Positions 15,912-36,820 of a stretch of 64,000 bases of DNA are shown here, piece after piece; the stretch's first letter is position 1; every line of letters starts with the position of its first letter. The stretch comes from Propioniciclava coleopterorum (GTDB lineage Bacteria > Actinomycetota > Actinomycetes > Propionibacteriales > Propionibacteriaceae): positions 558,001 through 622,000 of the forward strand of contig NZ_CP049865.1 in NCBI RefSeq assembly GCF_011393335.1. The letters run 5' to 3'. Position numbers and translations under genes: made by a program. A model generated the notes under the pieces. It saw nothing but the letters and a program-made list of their open reading frames with translations, was not told the origin of the DNA and searched no databases.

Positions 15912-16024
15912 TACCCTGATCTGTGGACCCGTGTGGGGGAACCCGGTGAGAATCCGGGGCTGACCCGCAACCGTGAGGCGCCAACCCGCGCCGCAGTCGG
16001 AGCACCCGCCCGGACCCAGCCAAC
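15912..16024 (+). ncRNA. Cobalamin (B12) riboswitch
   Basis: The conserved core is easy to read: GGGAACCCGGTGAGAATCC at about 15936-15954, then CTGACCCGCAACCGTGA at about 15960-15976, then CAGTCGGAGCACCCGCC at about 15995-16011. These correspond to the B12-box and junction segments of the Rfam Cobalamin class. Cobalamin binding normally turns off expression. It lies about 90-190 bases ahead of a five-gene operon, so those genes are predicted to be made when corrinoid is scarce. I see no clear intrinsic terminator before the first start, so control may act on translation. Outer boundaries are approximate. Confidence 0.92.
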
Positions 16025-16111
16025 CATTGACCCGTCGAGGAGTGCGGGGCGGCGACCACGACACGTCCACCGTTGATCGGCCCGCGCGACTCAGTGAGGA
16101 ACTCGATCCGG

Positions 16112-17182
16112 ATGAACGTCCGACGCAACGCCATCGTGGCCGGGATCGCCACGGTGCTCGCCCTCTGCCTGACCGGAGTGCTCCCCGCGCACGCCTCCGA
16201 CCCCGCGGCCGCCACCAAGGCGGCCGGGTGGGTCGCACAGCAGAGCATCGACGACCCGGCCAAGGCCACCGACGCGCTCGTCGCCCTGGCCGCCGCCAAC
16301 GACCCGGCGACCGCCCCCGCGGTCGAGAAGCTCACCGCGGTCCTCACCGGGAAGGGCAAGGACTACGCCGCCGGCTCGCCGGAGGCCGCCGCCAAGGTGG
16401 CCGTGGCGCTGGAGTCGGTCGGCCAGGACCCGCGCACCGCGGCCGGCGCCGACCTCATCGCGGCCGTCAAGGGCGGCATCGCCGCGGACGGCAGCTTCGG
16501 CTCCTACCCCGGCCCGTTCGCCACGGGCCTTGCCGCGGTGGCTCTGACCCGCGCCGACGAGGCCGTCCCGGACGCGCTGGGCAGCAAGCTCCTCACCTTC
16601 CAGAACGCCGACGGCGGCTTCACCTACGAGGCCGGGCAGCCCTCCGACGCCGACTCCACCGCGCTGGCCATGCAGGCGCTGAGCGCCCTGGGCGACCAGG
16701 ACAACCTCGACAAGGCGATCGCGTGGGCCCAGGCCAACGTCCAGGCCGACGGCTCCTTCGCCGGCTTCAACCCCGTTAACTCCACCGCCGTCATGGCGGC
16801 CGCGCTGGCCCCCACGGGTCAGAACGTCGCCGACTCCGTGGCCTACCTCGTCGGCCAGCAGCAGCCGGGCGGCGCCTTCCAGAACGCCGGCGCCGACGAC
16901 CTGTTGGCCACGGCGCAGGCCACGCTCGGCCTGGCGGGCGTCTCCTATCTGGACGCCGCCTGGTCCGAGGCTCCCTCGCCTTCGCCGACCGCCACCCCGG
17001 CCGGGACGACCGGTCCGGCCGCTTCGCCCGGCGCGACCGCCGGCGCGACCCCCGCGCCGACCGGCGCCCCGACGGCCACCGCCCCCGGCGGCGTCGACCC
17101 GTCCGGCTGGTTCGGGCCCGCCGCGGCGGTGCTCGTGCTGGCCGGTGCGGCGGTCGTGGGCTTCCGGAGCAGGGCGTCATGA
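16112..17182 (+). CDS. Secreted, membrane-anchored alpha/alpha-barrel repeat protein, probable corrinoid-binding
   Basis: 356 residues. A signal peptide (about 1-29, twin basic residues then a hydrophobic core ending HA-S) is followed by a prenyltransferase/squalene-cyclase-like repeat region (about 30-280) with typical turns: ADGSFGSYPGPFATGLA, NADGGFTYEA and QPGGAFQNAGADDLLATAQA. A Pro/Thr/Ser-rich linker (about 285-330) and a C-terminal membrane helix with a short basic tail follow. The N-terminal domain of animal intrinsic factor/transcobalamin is the same alpha6/alpha6-barrel fold. With the B12 riboswitch upstream, a role as extracellular cobalamin-capture protein is a good inference, not a proof. 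ATG 16112 is preferred (GAGGA about 11 bases upstream); a GTG at 16094 is possible. Confidence 0.8.
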   Translation: MNVRRNAIVAGIATVLALCLTGVLPAHASDPAAATKAAGWVAQQSIDDPAKATDALVALAAANDPATAPAVEKLTAVLTGKGKDYAAGSPEAAAKVAVALESVGQDPRTAAGADLIAAVKGGIAADGSFGSYPGPFATGLAAVALTRADEAVPDALGSKLLTFQNADGGFTYEAGQPSDADSTALAMQALSALGDQDNLDKAIAWAQANVQADGSFAGFNPVNSTAVMAAALAPTGQNVADSVAYLVGQQQPGGAFQNAGADDLLATAQATLGLAGVSYLDAAWSEAPSPSPTATPAGTTGPAASPGATAGATPAPTGAPTATAPGGVDPSGWFGPAAAVLVLAGAAVVGFRSRAS

Positions 17183-17758
17183 CCGGCCTTCGGCGCCTCG
17201 GCGCGGCCGTCGCCGCCGCAGCCCTCCTCGTGCCGGCCGCCGCGACGCCGGCGCACGCCGCGCCCGACGTCGCGCCCTGCACGGGGGTCTGGGTCGTGGT
17301 GGAGGGGCAGCGCTCGGCCTGCGCGTCCGAGCACGCCACCGGCCAGCAGGCCCTGACGTCGGCCGGCTTCACCGTGGAGGACTCCTCGCCCGGGATGCTG
17401 TGCCGCATCGGCGGACGCCCCGACACCTGCACCGTCGCGCCCAGCGGCTACTGGTCCTACTGGCAGGCGCCGCGCAACGCCGAGGGCGGCTGGGACGCCT
17501 GGACCTACTCCCAGCTCGGCTACACGAACTCCCACCCCGCGGCCGGCGCCGCGGAGGGCTGGGTGTTCGGCGACGGTCGGACGCCTCCCGCCCCCTCCCG
17601 GCGACCGACGAGGTCCCCGCGGATCAGGGCCGTCCCCGGAGGGGGGTCCCGCGAACGCCGGGCGCGACGACCTCACCGGGGTCGTCGTGACCGGGGCGGT
17701 GCTGCTGGTGGGCGGCGCCGCCGTCGCCACGGTGCTGGCCCGGCGCCGGCGTCCATGA
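17179..17758 (+). CDS. Transcobalamin beta-domain-like (DUF4430-type) membrane-anchored protein; frame broken twice
   Basis: The N-terminus has a signal peptide (about 1-28, ending in AHA-A). A domain of about 100 residues with GYWSYWQA, WTYSQLGY and EGWVFGDG resembles the DUF4430/transcobalamin C-terminal domain. The frame then fails: adding one C in the run 17591-17595 and one G in the run 17641-17646 restores a Pro-rich linker and a C-terminal membrane helix ([18 protein letters not shown]) ending in ARRRRP, with the stop overlapping the next start as ATGA. Without these repairs the frame runs falsely into the EcfT gene. The start overlaps the previous stop (ATGA). Probably an intact gene with two base-calling errors. 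Confidence 0.75.
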
Positions 17759-18843
17759 GCCAGGTCCACCCCTGGGCCTGGTGGGCGTGGGCGCTCGGTC
17801 TCGCGGCCGCTCTCTCCCTCACCACCAACCCGCTCCTGATCGCGCTGGTCGTCCTCGCGGCGACCGCCGTCGTGCTGCTGCGCCGCACCGACGCCCCGTG
17901 GGCGCGCTCGATCGGGGTCTACTTCGTGCTGGCCGGCTTCATCGTGGCCTTCCGGCTGTTCTTCCACGTGCTGATGGGCGCCCACGGGGGCGGCACCGTG
18001 CTGTTCTCCCTGCCCGAGATCCACCTGCCCGCCTGGGCGGCCGGGATCCGGCTGGGTGGGGCCGTGACCGCCGAGGGCGTCACCTACGCCGTCTACGACG
18101 CGCTGCGGCTGGGCGCCATGCTGCTGTGCCTCGGCGCCGCCAACGCGCTGGCCAACCCCAAGCGCGCCCTGCGCAACGTCCCCGCGGCCCTGTATGAGGC
18201 GTCCGTCGCGATCGTGATCGCGCTGTCGGTGGCACCCCAGCTGATCGAGTCGGTCCAGCGGGTCCGGCGCGCCCGCCGGCTGCGCGGCGGCGCGGGTCGC
18301 GGCTGGCAGGCCGTCCGCGCCGTGGTCATCCCGGTGCTGGCCGACGCCATCGATCGCTCGCTCGCCCTGGCCGCGGGCATGGAGGCGCGCGGCTTCGGGC
18401 GGACCCGCGCCGGCTCGGGACCGTCCCGGCCGCTGGGTGCGGCGCTGCTCGCGGCGATGTTCGCGGCGACGCTGGGCGCCTTCCTGGTCCTGGGCGCCCC
18501 CGGGGCGGTCGGCTGGGGCCTGGCGCTGCTGGCTCTCGGCGTGGCCGGCACGGTGCTGGGGCTGCGCCGCAGCGGACGCCGGCTGGCCGTCAGCCGCTAC
18601 CGTCCCGACCCCTGGACACCGCGCGACACCGCGCTGGCCGGCTCGGGGCTCGTGGCCTTCGCCCTGGCCGCCGCGGCGGACTCGGGCGCCTGGCCCGCCG
18701 TGCACGCCGCGTTCCACCCCTCGACCTCGCCGCTGAGCTGGCCGACCCTCCACCCGCTCATGCTGGTGCTCGCGGCGGCCGCCGCTGCGCCGTTGCTGCT
18801 CACCGCCGCCCCGCGTCCGGCCGAGTTGGGAGCGCCCGCGTGA
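17755..18843 (+). CDS. ECF transporter transmembrane component (EcfT/CbiQ family)
   Basis: 362 residues. Several membrane helices (about 8-50, 60-80, 100-130, 150-170 and a C-terminal group after about 220) flank a cytoplasmic coupling region. That region holds the two EcfT-type Ala-Arg-Gly-like motifs, RRARRLRGG (about 176-184) and MEARGFGRT (about 208-216), which dock onto the ATPases. It has two extra C-terminal membrane pairs compared with a minimal EcfT. ATG 17755 overlaps the preceding stop and the end overlaps the ATPase gene (GTGA). Confidence 0.88.
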   Translation: MSQVHPWAWWAWALGLAAALSLTTNPLLIALVVLAATAVVLLRRTDAPWARSIGVYFVLAGFIVAFRLFFHVLMGAHGGGTVLFSLPEIHLPAWAAGIRLGGAVTAEGVTYAVYDALRLGAMLLCLGAANALANPKRALRNVPAALYEASVAIVIALSVAPQLIESVQRVRRARRLRGGAGRGWQAVRAVVIPVLADAIDRSLALAAGMEARGFGRTRAGSGPSRPLGAALLAAMFAATLGAFLVLGAPGAVGWGLALLALGVAGTVLGLRRSGRRLAVSRYRPDPWTPRDTALAGSGLVAFALAAAADSGAWPAVHAAFHPSTSPLSWPTLHPLMLVLAAAAAAPLLLTAAPRPAELGAPA

Positions 18844-20432
18844 TCACCTTCGACGACGTGACCATCACCTACCCCGAGGCCGTTGCCCCCACCCTGGAGC
18901 GGGTGAGCTTCACCGTGCCCGAGGGCGACCTGGCGGTCGTGGTGGGGCGCACCGGCACCGGGAAGTCCACCCTGCTGGGCGCGATCAACGGTCTCGTCCC
19001 GCACTTCACCGGCGGCGTCCTGGCCGGGGACGTGACCGTCGCGGGGCGCTCGACCCGCGCCCACCGGCCCCGCGACCTGGCCGACGTGGTCGGCTGGGTG
19101 GGCCAGGACCCCCGCGCCGGCTTCGTCACCGACACGGTGGAGGAGGAGATCGCCTACGGCATGGAGCAGTTGGGGCTCCCCCCGGCGGCGATGCGCAAGC
19201 GCGTCGAGGAGACGCTCGACCTGATGGGCATCGCCGCCCTGCGCGGCCGCCCGCTCGCTGACCTGTCCGGGGGGCAGCAGCAGCGCGTCGCCATCGCGGC
19301 GGTCCTGGCCGCGCAGCCCCGCGTCCTCGTGCTCGACGAGCCCACCTCGGCGCTCGACCCCACCTCGGCCCAGGACGTCCTCGGCGCGCTCACCACGCTG
19401 GTCCACGAGGTCGGCCTCACGGTGGTGCTGGCCGAGCACCGCCTCGAGCGCGTCCTGCACCAGGCCGACACCCTGATCTGGCTGCCGCAGGGCGCCCGGG
19501 GCGTCGAGGTCGGTCCGCCCGCCGACGTCCTGCTGCGCTGCGACGTCCGGCCGCCGCTGGCCCAACTGGCCCGCGCGCTGGACTGGGACGAAGTGCCGGG
19601 CTCGGTGCGGGACGCCCGCCGCCGCGCCCAGCGCGAACGCATCGTCGTCACGCCTCCCGGCGTCGTTCCGCTCAGCGAGGGCCCGACGCGCGTCCGCGCG
19701 CGCGACCTGAGCGTCGCCTACGGCGCCACGGTGGCGGTCAACCACCTCGACCTGGAACTCCGGGGCGGCGAGGTCACCGCGCTGATGGGCCGCAACGGGG
19801 CCGGCAAGTCGTCGCTGCTGTGGGCGCTGCAGGGCGGCGTGCGCAGCACCGGCGCGCTCGAGATCGACGGGTCCGATCCGCGCGACCTCCCGGCGCCGCA
19901 GGCGCGGCGGCTGGTCAGCCTGGTCCCCCAGACCGCCGCCGATCTGCTCTACCTGCCCAGCGTGGCGGCCGAGCTCGCCCAGGCCGACCGGGAGACCGGC
20001 AGCGCCCCCGGCACGGCCGCCCGGCTGCTCACCGGCCTGGGCTCGGCCCTCCCCCCGGACGCCGACCCGCGCGACCTGTCCGAGGGGCAGCGCCTCAGCC
20101 TCGTCCTGGCGATCCAGCTGGCCGCCGAGCCGGGCGTCCTGCTGCTGGACGAGCCGACCCGGGGCCTCGACTACGCCATGAAGGACCGGCTGGCGCTGAT
20201 CCTGGGTCGGCTGGCCGCCGACGGCCAGGCGGTCGCGGTCAGCACCCACGACGTGGAGTTCGCGGCCGCGGTGAGCCGCCGCACCCTCGTGCTCGCCGGG
20301 GGGGACATCATCGCCGACGGGCCGACCCGCGAGGTGCTGACCAGTTCCCCCACCTTCGCCCCGCAGACCGCGAAGGTGTTCGCCCCGGTCCCCGTCCTGG
20401 TGCCGGCGGAGCTGGAGGGGGCGCGGCGATGA
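18840..20432 (+). CDS. ECF transporter ATPase, two fused ABC domains
   Basis: 530 residues with two ABC ATPase units in one chain, equivalent to EcfA and EcfA'. The first (about 1-235) has Walker A GRTGTGKST at about 37-45, signature LSGGQQQR and Walker B VLVLDEPTSAL. The second (about 280-520) has GRNGAGKSS, a diverged signature LSEGQRLS and VLLLDEPTRGLD. It powers uptake by the EcfT/S-component pair. GTG start inside the EcfT stop; end overlaps the S-component start (ATGA). Confidence 0.93.
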   Translation: MITFDDVTITYPEAVAPTLERVSFTVPEGDLAVVVGRTGTGKSTLLGAINGLVPHFTGGVLAGDVTVAGRSTRAHRPRDLADVVGWVGQDPRAGFVTDTVEEEIAYGMEQLGLPPAAMRKRVEETLDLMGIAALRGRPLADLSGGQQQRVAIAAVLAAQPRVLVLDEPTSALDPTSAQDVLGALTTLVHEVGLTVVLAEHRLERVLHQADTLIWLPQGARGVEVGPPADVLLRCDVRPPLAQLARALDWDEVPGSVRDARRRAQRERIVVTPPGVVPLSEGPTRVRARDLSVAYGATVAVNHLDLELRGGEVTALMGRNGAGKSSLLWALQGGVRSTGALEIDGSDPRDLPAPQARRLVSLVPQTAADLLYLPSVAAELAQADRETGSAPGTAARLLTGLGSALPPDADPRDLSEGQRLSLVLAIQLAAEPGVLLLDEPTRGLDYAMKDRLALILGRLAADGQAVAVSTHDVEFAAAVSRRTLVLAGGDIIADGPTREVLTSSPTFAPQTAKVFAPVPVLVPAELEGARR

Positions 20433-21239
20433 GCATCCTGCAGCGGACGCCGACCGTCACCGCCCCCGCACCGACCGCGCCCCCGGCCCCCCGGCCGTGG
20501 CGGCGCGGGGCGATGCTCGCCCTGACCGCGCTGGCCGGCCTGGTCGCGTTCGCCTGGCCCCTGTTCCTCGCGCCGGGGTCGGTGGTCAGCCCGCTGCAGG
20601 CCCCGCTGGTGTTCGCGCTGGTGCTGCCGCTGATCCTGGCCGTCGTCGTCGCCGACCTGACCGGGGACGGCATGGACGTCAAGGCGCTGGCCATGCTGGG
20701 GGTGCTCGCTGCGGTGGGGGCGATCCTGCGGCCGTTGGGCACCGGCACCGCCGGAATGGAGCCGATCTTCTTCCTGCTGATCCTCGGGGCCGGGTGTTCG
20801 GCCCCGGCTTCGGCTTCGCCCAGGGCGCGCTCACCCTGTTCGCCTCGTCGCTCCTGACGGCCGGGGTCGGGCCGTGGCTGCCCTACCAGATGATCGCCGC
20901 GGGGTTCGTCGGGCTGGGGGCCGGGCTGCTCCCCGCGCCCGCGGCTGGGTCGAACTCGCGCTGCTCGCCGCCTGGGGCTTCGCGGCGTCGTTCGCCTACG
21001 GCTGGCTGATGGACTTCGCGTTCTGGCCCTTCGGGTTGGGGACCTCGACCCAGTTCTCGTTCGACCCGACCGCGGGACCGCTGCGGAACCTCCACGTCTT
21101 CGTCCTCTACAACCTCGTCACCTCCATGGGGTGGAACCTGGGCCGCGCCCTCACCAGCGTCGCCCTGATCGCTCTGCTGGGCCCGGGGCTGCTGCACGTC
21201 CTGCGCCGCGCCGCGCGCCGTGGCGGTTTCGCCCGTTGA
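20429..21239 (+). CDS. ECF transporter S component (substrate binding), frame broken twice; probable cobalamin specificity
   Basis: The substrate-binding membrane subunit, with about six helices. The first piece reads to LLILG; adding one G in the run 20786-20789 gives LGGRVFGPGFGFAQGALTLF, and adding one C in the run 20931-20934 gives LLPRARGWVELALLAAWG and then ASFAYGWLMDFAFWPF to the stop at 21237-21239. RVFGPGFGF and the WPF ending are typical of actinobacterial S components next to fused ATPases. The cobalamin riboswitch and partners suggest a CbrT-like specificity, which is inference. Three frames in sequence, each one base earlier, point to base-calling loss and not decay. Confidence 0.8.
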
Positions 21240-27800: not shown

Positions 27801-29485
27801 TCAGAACAGGCCGACGATGCGGCCGTCGGGGCCCAGGTCCATCCGCTCGGCCGCCGGGTGGCTGCCCAGGCCGGGCATCGTTTGCATCTGCCCCGACAAC
27901 GCGTACACGTAGCCGGCGCCCGCCGCGAGCCGCACCTCGCGGATGGGCAGCGTCCAGCCGGTCGGCGCGCCCCGATCGGTCGGGGTGGCCGTCGTCGACA
28001 GGTGCGTCTTGGCGACCAGCACCGGCAGCTCGCCGTACCCGAGATCGGTGTAGCGGCGCAGGTCCGCGGCGGCGGCCGGGGCCAGCTCCACGCCGTCGGC
28101 GCCGTACACCTTGGTGGCGAGCTTGCGCAGCTTCTCGGTGAGGGGGTCGGTCAGTTCGTAGGTGTAGCGCAGGTGCGTCACGTCCTGCGTGGCGGCCAGC
28201 ACCTGAGCGACCAGGTCGTCGGCGCCCGCTCCGCCCTGGGCCACGTGCCGCGTGATCGCGACGCGGACGCCGCGCTGCGCCGCGAACCTCCGGATCACCT
28301 CGTGCTCGCTGTCGTGGTCGTCGGGGAACGCGTTGATCGCGACGACGGCCGGGACGCCCGCCCCCGCCACGATGTCGAGGTGGTGACCCAGGTTCGCCAG
28401 CCCCGCGGCGACGTCGCTGGGGCTCTCGACGAGCATCTCGGGGGCAGGGGCTTGCCCGCGACCACCTTGTACCGGCCCGAGTGCACCTTCAGGGCGCGCA
28501 CCGTGACGACGACGACGGCGGCGTCGGGGACGAAGCCGGAGGTGCGGCACTTGACGTTGACGAACCGCTCGAAGCCCAGGTCCGCGCCGAACCCGGCCTC
28601 GGTGACGACGATGTCGGAGCGCGACAGCCCCACGTGGTCGGCCACGATGGAACTGTTGCCGGTGGCGATGTTGCCGAACGGCCCGCAGTGAACCAGAGCC
28701 GCCTGCCCCTCCAGGGTCTGCAGCAGGTTGGGACGGACGGCGTCCCTGAGCAGCACCGCCATGGCGCCGGCGGCCTGCAACTGCTCGGCGATGACGGGGG
28801 CGCCGTCGCGGCTGAACCCCACGACGATGCGGCCCAGCCGGGCGCGCAGGTCCTCCAGCGAGGTGGCCAGCGCCAGGATGGTCATGACCTCGGACGCCGC
28901 CGTGATGTCGAACCGGCTCTGCCGCGGCACCCCGTCGAGCCGCCCGCCCAACCCCAGCACCACGTTGCGCAGCGCGCGGTCGTTCATGTCCAGGACGCGG
29001 CCCCACGTGATGGAGTGCGGCTCGATGTCCAGCGCGTTGCCGTGCTGCAGGTGGTTGTCGACCATGGCGGCCAGCAGGTTGTGGGCGGCGGTGACCGCGT
29101 GGAAGTCGCCGGTCAGGTGCAGGTTCATCGCCTCCATGGGGATCACCTGCGCCAGGCCGGCACCGGCGGCGCCGCCCTTGATGCCGAAGACGGGCCCCAG
29201 CGAGGGCTGACGCAGCACGGCGGTCGCGTTGAGCCCCGCGCGCCCGAGTCCCTCGACCAGGCCCACGGTCGTGGTGGTCTTGCCCTCGCCCAGCGGGGTC
29301 GGGGACACCGCGGTGACGACGACGTAGCGCCCGGTGGGGCGGCGCCGGCCCACGGCGTCGAGTTCCACCTTGGACGCGTGACGGCCGAAGGGCTCGAGGT
29401 CGTCGGGGGTCAGTCCGAGCAGGGCACCGATCTCGGGCAGCGGCCGCAGCGTCGCGGCCTGGGCGATCTCCAGGTCTGAGGGCAC
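27801..29485 (-). CDS. fhs: Formate--tetrahydrofolate ligase (frame broken once)
   Basis: Makes 10-formyl-tetrahydrofolate from formate, THF and ATP, feeding purine and formyl-Met synthesis. The N-terminal part has the ATP-binding TPLGEGKTTTTVGL at about 65-78 and RQPSLGPVFGIKGGAAG. The end of the N-terminal frame (KVVAGKPLPP) must continue as EMLVESPSDVAAG, which needs one extra G in the run 28440-28444 (5 G, expected 6). Repaired length is about 561 residues, normal. GTG 29485 follows a weak -10 (AGGAAT) by six bases. The gene is intact apart from the likely base-calling error. It lies between map and infA, an unusual location. Confidence 0.93.
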
Positions 29486-34917: not shown

Positions 34918-35460
34918 TCACTTACCAGCCTTTCCGACCTTGCGGCGAACGTGCTCGCCGGCGTATCGCACGCCCTTGCCCTTGTAGGGCTCCGGCTTGC
35001 GCAGCTTGCGGATGTTGGCAGCAACCTCGCCAACAACCTGCTTATCGATGCCCTGCACCGAGAACGCGGTCGGCTTCTCCACGGTGAAGGTGACACCCTC
35101 GGGGGCGTCGATGATCACCGGGTGGCTGAATCCGAGGTTGAACTCCAGCTGCTGAGGGCCCTTGCTGATGACGCGGTAACCGACACCGACGATCTCCAGC
35201 TTCTTCTCGTAGCCCTGGGTGACGCCGATGACCATGTTGTTCACCAGCGTGCGCGTCAGGCCGTGGAGGGACCGGGACTCGCGCTCGTCGTCCGGGCGCG
35301 TCACCTCGATCTCCCCCGCGTCGTTCTTACCGACCTTGATGGGCTCGGCGACGGTGAGGTTGAGGGTCCCCTTGGGGCCCTTGATCTCGACGTCCTGCCC
35401 CTCGAGCTTGATCTCGACACCGGCCGGGACCGTGATGGGGAGCTTTCCAATACGCGACAT
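34918..35460 (-). CDS. rplF: 50S ribosomal protein L6
   Basis: 180 residues with the two tandem L6 domains. [20 protein letters not shown], then [20 protein letters not shown] and [19 protein letters not shown] near the end. Followed by rplR with two bases between. Confidence 0.97.
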
Positions 35461-35478
35461 GTTTTTTCAGCTCCTCTC

Positions 35479-35886
35479 TCACCAAACGTAGGCGAGCACT
35501 TCGCCGCCGACGCTCTTACGTGATGCTTCCTTGTCGGTCAGCAGGCCCTGCGAGGTCGAGATGATCGCGACGCCGAGGCCGCCGAGCACCTTGGGCAGCG
35601 CGTTGCTCTTGGCGTAGACGCGCAGGCCGGGCTTGCTGATCCGGCGCAGGCCCGCGATGGAACGCTCGCGGTTCTGGCCGTACTTCAGGGTGATGTTCAG
35701 GGTCTTGCCGACCTCGCCTTCGGCGGGGTCGATGACCTCGTAGGACGTGATGTAGCCCTGCTGCTTCAGGATCTCGGCGATACCCACCTTGATCTTGCTG
35801 TGCGGCATGGAGGTCGAGTCGTGGTACGCCTGGTTGGCGTTACGCAGACGCGTCAGCATGTCTGCGATCGGATCGGTCATTGTCAT
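35479..35886 (-). CDS. rpsH: 30S ribosomal protein S8
   Basis: 135 residues, [20 protein letters not shown]. The first ATG (35886) matches other actinobacterial S8 proteins; the second (35880) is also possible. [10 protein letters not shown] is the usual end. S8 also represses its operon by binding mRNA in enterobacteria; whether it does so here is unknown. Confidence 0.96.
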
Positions 35887-35978
35887 GGCGTTTTGCGGCC
35901 TCTTTCTCGCCGTGGTTTCCCCGGGGCGTTCGTGCCCCGGGGACCTTCAGCGTCAGGATTCTTGGGAGTTCTGGTGAA

Positions 35979-36164
35979 TCACCAGGACGACTTGGTGACG
36001 CCCGGCAGCTCACCGCGGTGGGCCAGGTCGCGCAGACACACGCGGCACAGGCCGAACTTGCGGTAGACGGAGCGCGGACGCCCGCACTTGTTGCAGCGGG
36101 TGTAGGCGCGGACGGCGAACTTCGGCTTGCGCGCCTGCTTCACCTTCAAAGCGGTCTTAGCCAT
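35979..36164 (-). CDS. rpsZ: 30S ribosomal protein S14, zinc-binding type
   Basis: 61 residues, the short S14 with four zinc ligands (CNKC and CRVC at about 24-27 and 40-43). It replaces the long rpsN form in this cluster; no second rpsN is in the window. Located between rplE and rpsH as usual. Confidence 0.95.
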
Positions 36165-36172
36165 CGATCAGC

Positions 36173-36820
36173 TCACTTCCTCGACATCTGCTTCTTGATC
36201 TGGCTCTTGGAGCCGGTGAAGGCGCGCTTGCGGGCGACGGCCTTCTTCGGATCGTTCTCCGGCGCCTTGAACGGGAAGCCCAGGTGCTTCAGCAGCGCCC
36301 GGCCCTCGTCGTCGTTGGTCGCGGAGGTGACGAACGTGATGTCCATGCCGCGCACGCGGTCGATCTTGTCCTGATCGATCTCGTGGAACATGACCTGCTC
36401 GTTCAGGCCGAAGGTGTAGTTGCCCTGGCCGTCGAACTGGCGGGCCGACAGACCGCGGAAGTCGCGGATGCGCGGCAGCGCCAGGGTCAGCAGACGGTCG
36501 GCGAACTCCCACATCCGGTCGCCGCGCAGCGTGACGTGGCAGCCGATCGGCATGCCCTCACGCAGCTTGAACTGGGCGATGGACTTGCGCGCCTTGGTGA
36601 CCTGCGGCTTCTGGCCGGTGATGGCCGTGATGTCGCGGATCGCGCCGTCGATGACCTTGGAGTCACGCGCCGCCTCGCCGACACCCATGTTCACCACGAT
36701 CTTCACCAGACCGGGGATCTGCATGACGTTGTCGTAGGTGAACTCTTCGTTCAGCGCGGGGCGGATCTCCTCGCGGTACTTCTGCTTCAGGCGGGGCAGT
36801 TCCTTGACGGACTCAGCCAT
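36173..36820 (-). CDS. rplE: 50S ribosomal protein L5
   Basis: 215 residues; carries 5S rRNA and touches S13. Core motifs: [38 protein letters not shown], and [20 protein letters not shown]. The C-terminus extends about 20 basic residues ([17 protein letters not shown]) past the usual end. Confidence 0.97.

Follow-up and report, generated by a model that had tools for sequence, protein, structure and literature searches.

Within a 64,000-nucleotide stretch of the Propioniciclava coleopterorum genome (NZ_CP049865.1, positions 558,001 to 622,000 of the forward strand; hereafter the window, from whose first base positions are counted), a cobalamin riboswitch is followed by five overlapping genes that probably form a corrinoid uptake operon with a split, transcobalamin-type sandwich as its extracellular receptor. 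Genes 1 and 2 code for exported, anchored proteins that would supply the alpha and beta halves of the sandwich, and genes 3 to 5 for an energy-coupling factor (ECF) importer. Such a split transcobalamin had been proposed in a preliminary description of this DNA, and three lines of evidence support it: the match of a two-domain fold to the animal B12 carriers, the link to cobalamin riboswitches across genomes, and natural fusions of the two halves. We infer that a corrinoid is the ligand, that the two halves close on it, and that it is handed over to the S component.

The riboswitch and operon of the window

The P. coleopterorum genome is 3.67 Mb long in a single contig and has seven RF00174 sites, including the one upstream of gene 1, which is the sole match above the gathering score within the window (Table 1). 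Both this riboswitch (34.4 bits) and the run of genes with four-base overlaps were recognized in the preliminary description and are borne out, the overlaps lying at 17179-17182 (ATGA), 17755-17758 (ATGA), 18840-18843 (GTGA), and 20429-20432 (ATGA). The single-strand folding energy of the riboswitch leader is no better than that of shuffles (z +1.36). The reading of five genes stands for genes 1, 3, and 4, which are open, but genes 2 and 5 are not single open frames. The EcfT and fused double ATPase were correctly identified, with PF02361 matching gene 3 at 9.6e-11 and two ABC ATPase domains in gene 4, and the S component completes the set of parts (one EcfT, two copies of EcfA, and S) that defines an ECF transporter. 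The assignment of gene 5 as the S component rests on relatives, as its pieces match PF12822 at E 0.046 only, and a homolog in the related locus L041 (loci outside the window are numbered with the prefix L) matches at 1e-10.

Gene 1 is, as had been described, a secreted, membrane-anchored alpha/alpha-repeat protein, with a signal peptide, a repeat domain, and a C-terminal hydrophobic stretch followed by a basic tail (by inspection); the AlphaFold2 model of its domain is a 12-helix alpha6/alpha6 barrel (pLDDT 97.1, pTM 0.93). Its score to the NCBIfam family SCO2321_fam is 40.7 bits against a cut-off of 300, and that of gene 2 to SCO2322_fam is 22.9 bits against a cut-off of 85. In L037:2937-4385 on the minus strand (by Pfam) and in L090 (by inspection), the gene 1 homolog has S-layer homology domains, which are another way of surface retention.

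Table 1. Features of the candidate corrinoid uptake operon (window coordinates)
Feature	Position	Strand	Evidence
Cobalamin riboswitch aptamer, short form	15914..16027	+	Rfam RF00174, 34.4 bits, E 4.8e-5, gathering 31.5
Gene 1, SCO2321-like alpha6/alpha6 barrel protein, exported and anchored at its C terminus; putative alpha half	16112..17182	+	Open reading frame; SCO2321_fam 1.4e-10, below cut-off
Alpha domain of gene 1, 12 helices	16196..16975	+	AlphaFold2 pLDDT 97.1, pTM 0.93; toroid matches in PDB
Gene 2, exported, anchored DUF4430-like protein, SCO2322-like; putative beta half	17179..17758	+	SCO2322_fam 8.6e-5, below cut-off; one frame change after folded domain
Beta (DUF4430-like) domain of gene 2, one open frame	17278..17577	+	hhalign of gene 2 family against DUF4430 members, E 7.4e-6
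Gene 3, EcfT (CbiQ-type) transmembrane component	17755..18843	+	PF02361 9.6e-11
Gene 4, EcfA-EcfA fused double ATPase	18840..20432	+	PF00005 6.2e-50, two stretches; TIGR04521 2.6e-78
Gene 5, ECF S component (substrate-binding membrane protein)	20429..21239	+	Read in three frames; intact homologs in relatives

Natural fusions and the two-domain fold

In 11 of 80 loci, and in three of 15 loci of another set, both halves are encoded in one frame. The fusions occur in both orders, alpha-then-beta in L052, L062, L065, L072, L079, L034, and L035, and beta-then-alpha in L059, L063, L074, L077, L090, L110, and L036. L062 is doubtful, since a hydrophobic stretch separates its halves and the frame may comprise two genes; the fusions therefore number 13 or 14. 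By inspection, three of them (L052, L034, and L035) finish with an additional domain that has no hydrophobic anchor, and L052 has one riboswitch ahead of an unfused gene 1 and a second ahead of the fused gene. With no membrane anchor visible on the fused alpha-beta protein of these relatives, a portion of the system may act as a B12 carrier that is secreted and free.

We modelled the alpha and beta parts of the fused protein of Micropruina glycogenica (414 residues; pLDDT 84.8, pTM 0.77) from an alignment in which four rows cover the barrel and 28 the beta domain; alignments that combined fused with single-domain rows were discarded because they placed barrel ends on the beta domain. In a Foldseek search of the PDB with this model, ranks 1-15 are all transcobalamin, intrinsic factor, or haptocorrin (E 3.6e-11 to 7.9e-7), aligned over 426-458 columns, gaps included, and terpene cyclases begin at E 5.5e-5. 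The beta part is folded as bb-a-bb-bb (strands 297-302 and 308-313, helix 319-325, and strands 330-332, 338-341, 354-361, and 389-396), and the same order of strands and helix is given for the transcobalamin beta domain in the available portions of two papers (PMC11107200, PMC13385337). By alignment, gene 2 of the window belongs to the family of this beta part. The preliminary description would have been contradicted by folds unlike those of transcobalamin; instead, gene 1 is an alpha6/alpha6 barrel and the fused relative has a two-domain fold matching the transcobalamin family.

Distribution and riboswitch association

Searching with the gene 1 sequence alone gave matches in 15 of 57 genomes, P. 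coleopterorum included, all among the genomes of the same family (15 of 33) and none in the 24 genomes of other families; the genome of a same-genus relative carries the same operon. An alignment-based scan for the S component reached further. At least 569 of its 594 pattern matches were confirmed, and the best 80, nearest the query, were kept; these include Propionibacteriaceae, Streptomyces, Lentzea, Kribbella, Nocardioides, and Acidimicrobiia. Many of the 80 loci are cut by contig ends, and gene 1 was found in 56 and gene 2 in 62. When at least 5.5 kb is available upstream of the S frame (59 loci), gene 2 is present in 57, gene 1 in 48, and both in 48. Gene order and copy number vary widely among the loci; in Kytococcus aerolatus (L049), three gene 2-type domains surround one gene 1 in the same locus. 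Judged by these sequence matches, the operon is widespread in Actinomycetota.

The association with a B12 riboswitch noted in the window recurs in the relatives. Whole-genome searching with RF00174 covered 49 genomes, in which 21 loci were mapped by position among the matches listed; direct scanning of 23 further loci yielded 10 more positives. For the 21 mapped sites, the contig numbers agree for 11, eight were re-scanned and all eight confirmed, and two (L106 and L110) are placed by genome and position only. Altogether, 31 of the 49 genomes have a cobalamin-clan riboswitch on the same strand before gene 1 or gene 2, at a distance of 33-406 bp (median 104.5); 30 are RF00174 and one is AdoCbl-II. 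From the riboswitch counts and genome sizes, 0.012 would be expected by chance. Among the first relatives examined, 10 of 17 scanned loci have the riboswitch.

Five of the six other RF00174 sites of P. coleopterorum lie at genes for cobaltochelatase (with cbiET beside it), cobN, cobA, nrdE, and a BtuCDF/F420-0-type importer. This importer is an ABC system that is matched best by models of the F420-0 and BtuC types. The nrdE gene, for a class Ib ribonucleotide reductase, is at L044:7477-10035 on the minus strand, downstream of its riboswitch.

Gene 2 and the DUF4430 domain

Gene 2 had been described as a DUF4430-type protein, and this stands in part: comparison of the gene 2 family with DUF4430 members by hhalign supports it (Prob 84.2, E 7.4e-6, 95 columns), but HMMER finds no PF14478 match in gene 2 of the window, which is thus below the Pfam gathering score. 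The gene 2 HMM reaches one true DUF4430 gene at E 1.2e-4, and direct sequence searches of Pfam and the PDB with gene 2 or its family returned nothing relevant. With the DUF4430 profile, the best PDB match is 3u7z (E 0.0004), a structure that falls into one CATH superfamily with the beta domains of the animal carriers, according to the part of PMC13385337 available. The same profile aligns an invariant Trp in its matches to both human transcobalamin-1 and transcobalamin-2.

PF14478 itself is found in four of the 296 genomes searched in the class and in 42 of 246 across the phylum, and has no match in the P. coleopterorum genome. At 29 DUF4430 loci of about 3 kb each, 21 have a transporter-type neighbor, 12 of them EcfT-like and nine others an ABC ATPase, the latter by a profile that is unspecific; RF00174 was found inside the ~3-kb stretch at one of 20 loci scanned. 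We enlarged 11 of the loci, hand-picked in part for their EcfT or ATPase neighbors: homologs of the S component and of the ATPase are present in 10 each, a gene 1-like barrel in six, and a same-strand cobalamin riboswitch, adjoining the genes or up to ~3 kb ahead of the DUF4430 gene, in eight. Because the S component, ATPase, barrel, and riboswitch recur among the enlarged loci, the true DUF4430 domains of other classes appear to sit in the same kind of B12-riboswitch ECF locus. One such ECF locus is adjoined by a gene (L168:1833-6446, plus strand) whose 1538-residue product contains an Ig-like domain, two stretches of DUF4430, and a beta-propeller match that is below cut-off; an AdoCbl-II riboswitch lies at the start of this gene.

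Counterevidence and alternative explanations

Several observations, which we take together with the alternatives they bear on, weigh against a split transcobalamin-type receptor. The gene 1 barrel alone has drimenyl diphosphate synthases and squalene-hopene cyclases as its top PDB matches (E 6.1e-6), with rat transcobalamin at rank 14 (E 1.1e-4), and terpene cyclases outrank transcobalamin by sequence too. Since terpene cyclases come out ahead in this gene 1-only search, the modelled barrel by itself is non-diagnostic, resembling alpha/alpha toroids in general. PF01122, the family of the animal alpha domain, has no match at threshold among the window proteins, so that the check suggested in the preliminary description came out negative. 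Among 10 proteins of relatives, one matches PF01122 at 2.3e-4 (20.7 bits, cut-off 25), and across the phylum it is found in none of 246 genomes, in a search that is uninformative because its controls were equally silent.

These matches would fit gene 1 as a terpene-cyclase- or prenyltransferase-like enzyme, with gene 2 unrelated and the whole a riboswitch-controlled enzyme cluster, because squalene-hopene and drimenyl cyclases lead for the barrel in both sequence and structure, and the family has one invariant Asp, in a D-x-D-S context in the window. We find this scarcely credible. The DxDD acid motif occurs in three of 30 family members and is absent from gene 1 of the window, gene 1 is exported and anchored (by inspection), and its gene adjoins an ECF importer and is fused to a DUF4430-like domain in relatives.

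The beta half has counterevidence of its own. A PDB search with nothing but the gene 2 profile gives no solved structure of relevance, and the DUF4430 profile matches human transcobalamin-1 (E 0.051) and the transcobalamin-2 beta domain (E 0.054) weakly, with an unrelated SUI1-type chain (E 0.0013) outscoring both. In the fused model, just four aligned rows underlie the barrel, and whole-chain superposition on transcobalamin is poor (rmsd 16.1-17.5 Å, TM 0.40-0.49), therefore providing no demonstration of a closed sandwich; the placement of the modelled domains relative to each other either differs from that in ligand-bound crystals or is poorly predicted.

Nor is the pairing of genes 1 and 2, or their link to the riboswitch, complete. 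Nine of the 59 loci with sufficient upstream sequence have gene 2 without a detected gene 1 and two have neither, and 18 of the 49 genomes show no riboswitch ahead of the operon (13 scanned directly, five judged among the matches listed). The loci with an unpaired gene 2, together with the wide variation in gene order and copy number and the fact that barrels of the gene 1 fold are common and unspecific, could reflect a corrinoid uptake operon that has no sandwich, in which each surface protein acts alone, binding corrinoid, the cell wall, or the transporter, or serving as a scaffold or gate, and the likeness to the animal carriers is merely at the level of the fold. We consider this unlikely: joint action is indicated by the 13 or 14 fusions in both orders and by the presence of both proteins in 48 of 59 loci, and the Foldseek search with the fused protein ranks two-domain B12 carriers above single-domain toroids.

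As to the substrate, the S-component profile finds no significant match to a solved structure in the PDB, CbrT included, the sole chain up to E 1 being a folate S component (E 0.71); in this test of sequence homology the S component is not recognizably CbrT. The P. coleopterorum genome also carries B12 synthesis genes, and the need for uptake is not obvious. In bacteria, cobalamin riboswitches also control the uptake of cobalt and precursors. This control, the CbiQ-type T component, and an S component unlike CbrT would all suit import of another B12-related substrate, such as cobalt, cobinamide only, or the lower-ligand base dimethylbenzimidazole, which we think quite improbable, as there is no CbiM-type match among the five genes and the extracellular half shares the fold of whole-corrinoid binders. 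The strand order of the fused model also argues against it, as the hairpin that distinguishes the beta-domain superfamily of the carriers is described, in the accessible part of PMC13385337, as a surface for cobalamin coordination.

The remaining counterevidence is that the assembled window has no intact copy of gene 2 or gene 5. Gene 2 has a single frame change, located past the folded domain, with intact copies present in relatives, and gene 5 runs through three reading frames, of which the pieces (searched separately, as were those of gene 2) align with a single intact gene of the closest relative at 70, 96, and 85% identity. Such changes would be expected of a decaying pseudogene, a statement about this strain that is compatible with the other explanations. 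We hold decay to be improbable, as genes 1, 3, and 4 are open and other genes are split likewise: three of 54 comparable open frames of a relative match the window in more than one frame, and rpsD, for ribosomal protein S4 (TIGR01017; 25135-25742, minus strand), lies in two frames against the intact gene of the relative. Ribosomal protein S4 should be essential. The other two, each also in two frames, are a formate-tetrahydrofolate ligase gene (27804-29140, minus strand) and a frame at 35213-36195 (plus strand) with no NCBIfam match. Elsewhere in the genome, the cobaltochelatase (TIGR02442; L043:5308-7796), at a cobalamin riboswitch, consists of two overlapping open reading frames. Because rpsD, other window genes, and the cobaltochelatase are also split, indel errors in the assembly are likelier than decay as the cause of the frame changes, as far as the sequence indicates. 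A terpene cyclase operon, a pseudogene, and cobalt uptake were all considered and rejected on the evidence given against each.

A proposed mechanism of corrinoid capture

Cobalamin riboswitches generally permit expression when B12 is scarce. We propose that under such scarcity the riboswitch of the split-receptor operon would let the operon be made, and that the beta domain of gene 2 and the barrel of gene 1, exported and each tethered by a C-terminal helix, would close around one corrinoid in the manner of the two domains of intrinsic factor and transcobalamin. The loaded pair would then present this ligand to the S component, with inward transport powered by ATP through the EcfT-EcfA-EcfA module.

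In the animal carriers, according to the portion of PMC11107200 available, cobalamin is first bound by the beta domain and the alpha domain then closes; human transcobalamin (TC) halves made separately, TC-alpha and TC-beta, co-elute only on addition of cyanocobalamin, as reported in the accessible part of PMC5599065. Because separated human halves assemble with the ligand, beta binding first, a naturally split version is mechanically plausible by analogy. ECF systems can import cobalamin, as is described for ECF-CbrT in the available text of PMC5997447.

Comparison with known systems

The closest counterparts by architecture are animal transcobalamin, intrinsic factor, and haptocorrin (a PF01122 barrel and a CATH 2.170.130.30 domain), which likewise are exported and combine an alpha6/alpha6 barrel with a ubiquitin-like beta domain; several of the fused relatives share their alpha-then-beta chain. 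The window differs in having two separate membrane-anchored polypeptides, an ECF importer, no PF01122 match, and a bacterial host. ECF-CbrT of Lactobacillus delbrueckii is alike in ECF-type corrinoid import by a T component, two ATPases, and an S component, but, in the available portion of PMC5997447, it is a group II system whose module is shared among S components, with no extracellular receptor described. The window, in contrast, has a dedicated operon, in which the ATPases are fused and the S component has no sequence match to CbrT. BtuFCD-type importers also import B12, with a different kind of binding protein and permease.

Among uncharacterized families, DUF4430 proteins such as RUMGNA_00854 (PDB 3u7z) are related to gene 2 by profile, and true DUF4430 genes are found in B12-riboswitch ECF loci; the Pfam name of DUF4430 (PF14478) carries no function, and gene 2 of the window falls outside the Pfam model. 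SCO2321_fam and SCO2322_fam are the nearest families to genes 1 and 2, with the window proteins far below the cut-offs, and their NCBIfam descriptions give no function.

Implications

A literature search that took in few subscription papers and no preprints gave, among the matches listed and the text available, no description of such a system under DUF4430, SCO2321-2324, transcobalamin-like, or surface-corrinoid terms, in agreement with the earlier remark that no bacterial two-protein transcobalamin-like receptor was known to have been demonstrated. We conclude that the system is real and widespread, that as far as the literature searched shows it is undescribed, and that it is probably a bacterial B12 receptor with the architecture of an intrinsic factor in two pieces. 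More tentatively, and with a confidence a little short of even, we suggest that bacteria possess a counterpart, and perhaps the source, of intrinsic factor and transcobalamin in a two-protein B12 trap that stands before an ECF importer and has been repeatedly fused, several times in the animal alpha-then-beta order, with the anchor-free fusions as secreted corrinoid carriers.

Gram-positive bacteria have no outer membrane receptor, and to our knowledge how they concentrate scarce B12 at their surface is largely an open question. The operon offers a concrete candidate receptor and a proposed function for two NCBI families and one Pfam domain without one; if the reading is true, DUF4430 would be an extracellular corrinoid-binding domain throughout Actinomycetota and beyond. 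It suggests that bacteria may capture extracellular B12 in much the way that human gut and blood proteins do, and provides a candidate bacterial parallel to, or source for, the B12 carriers of animals.

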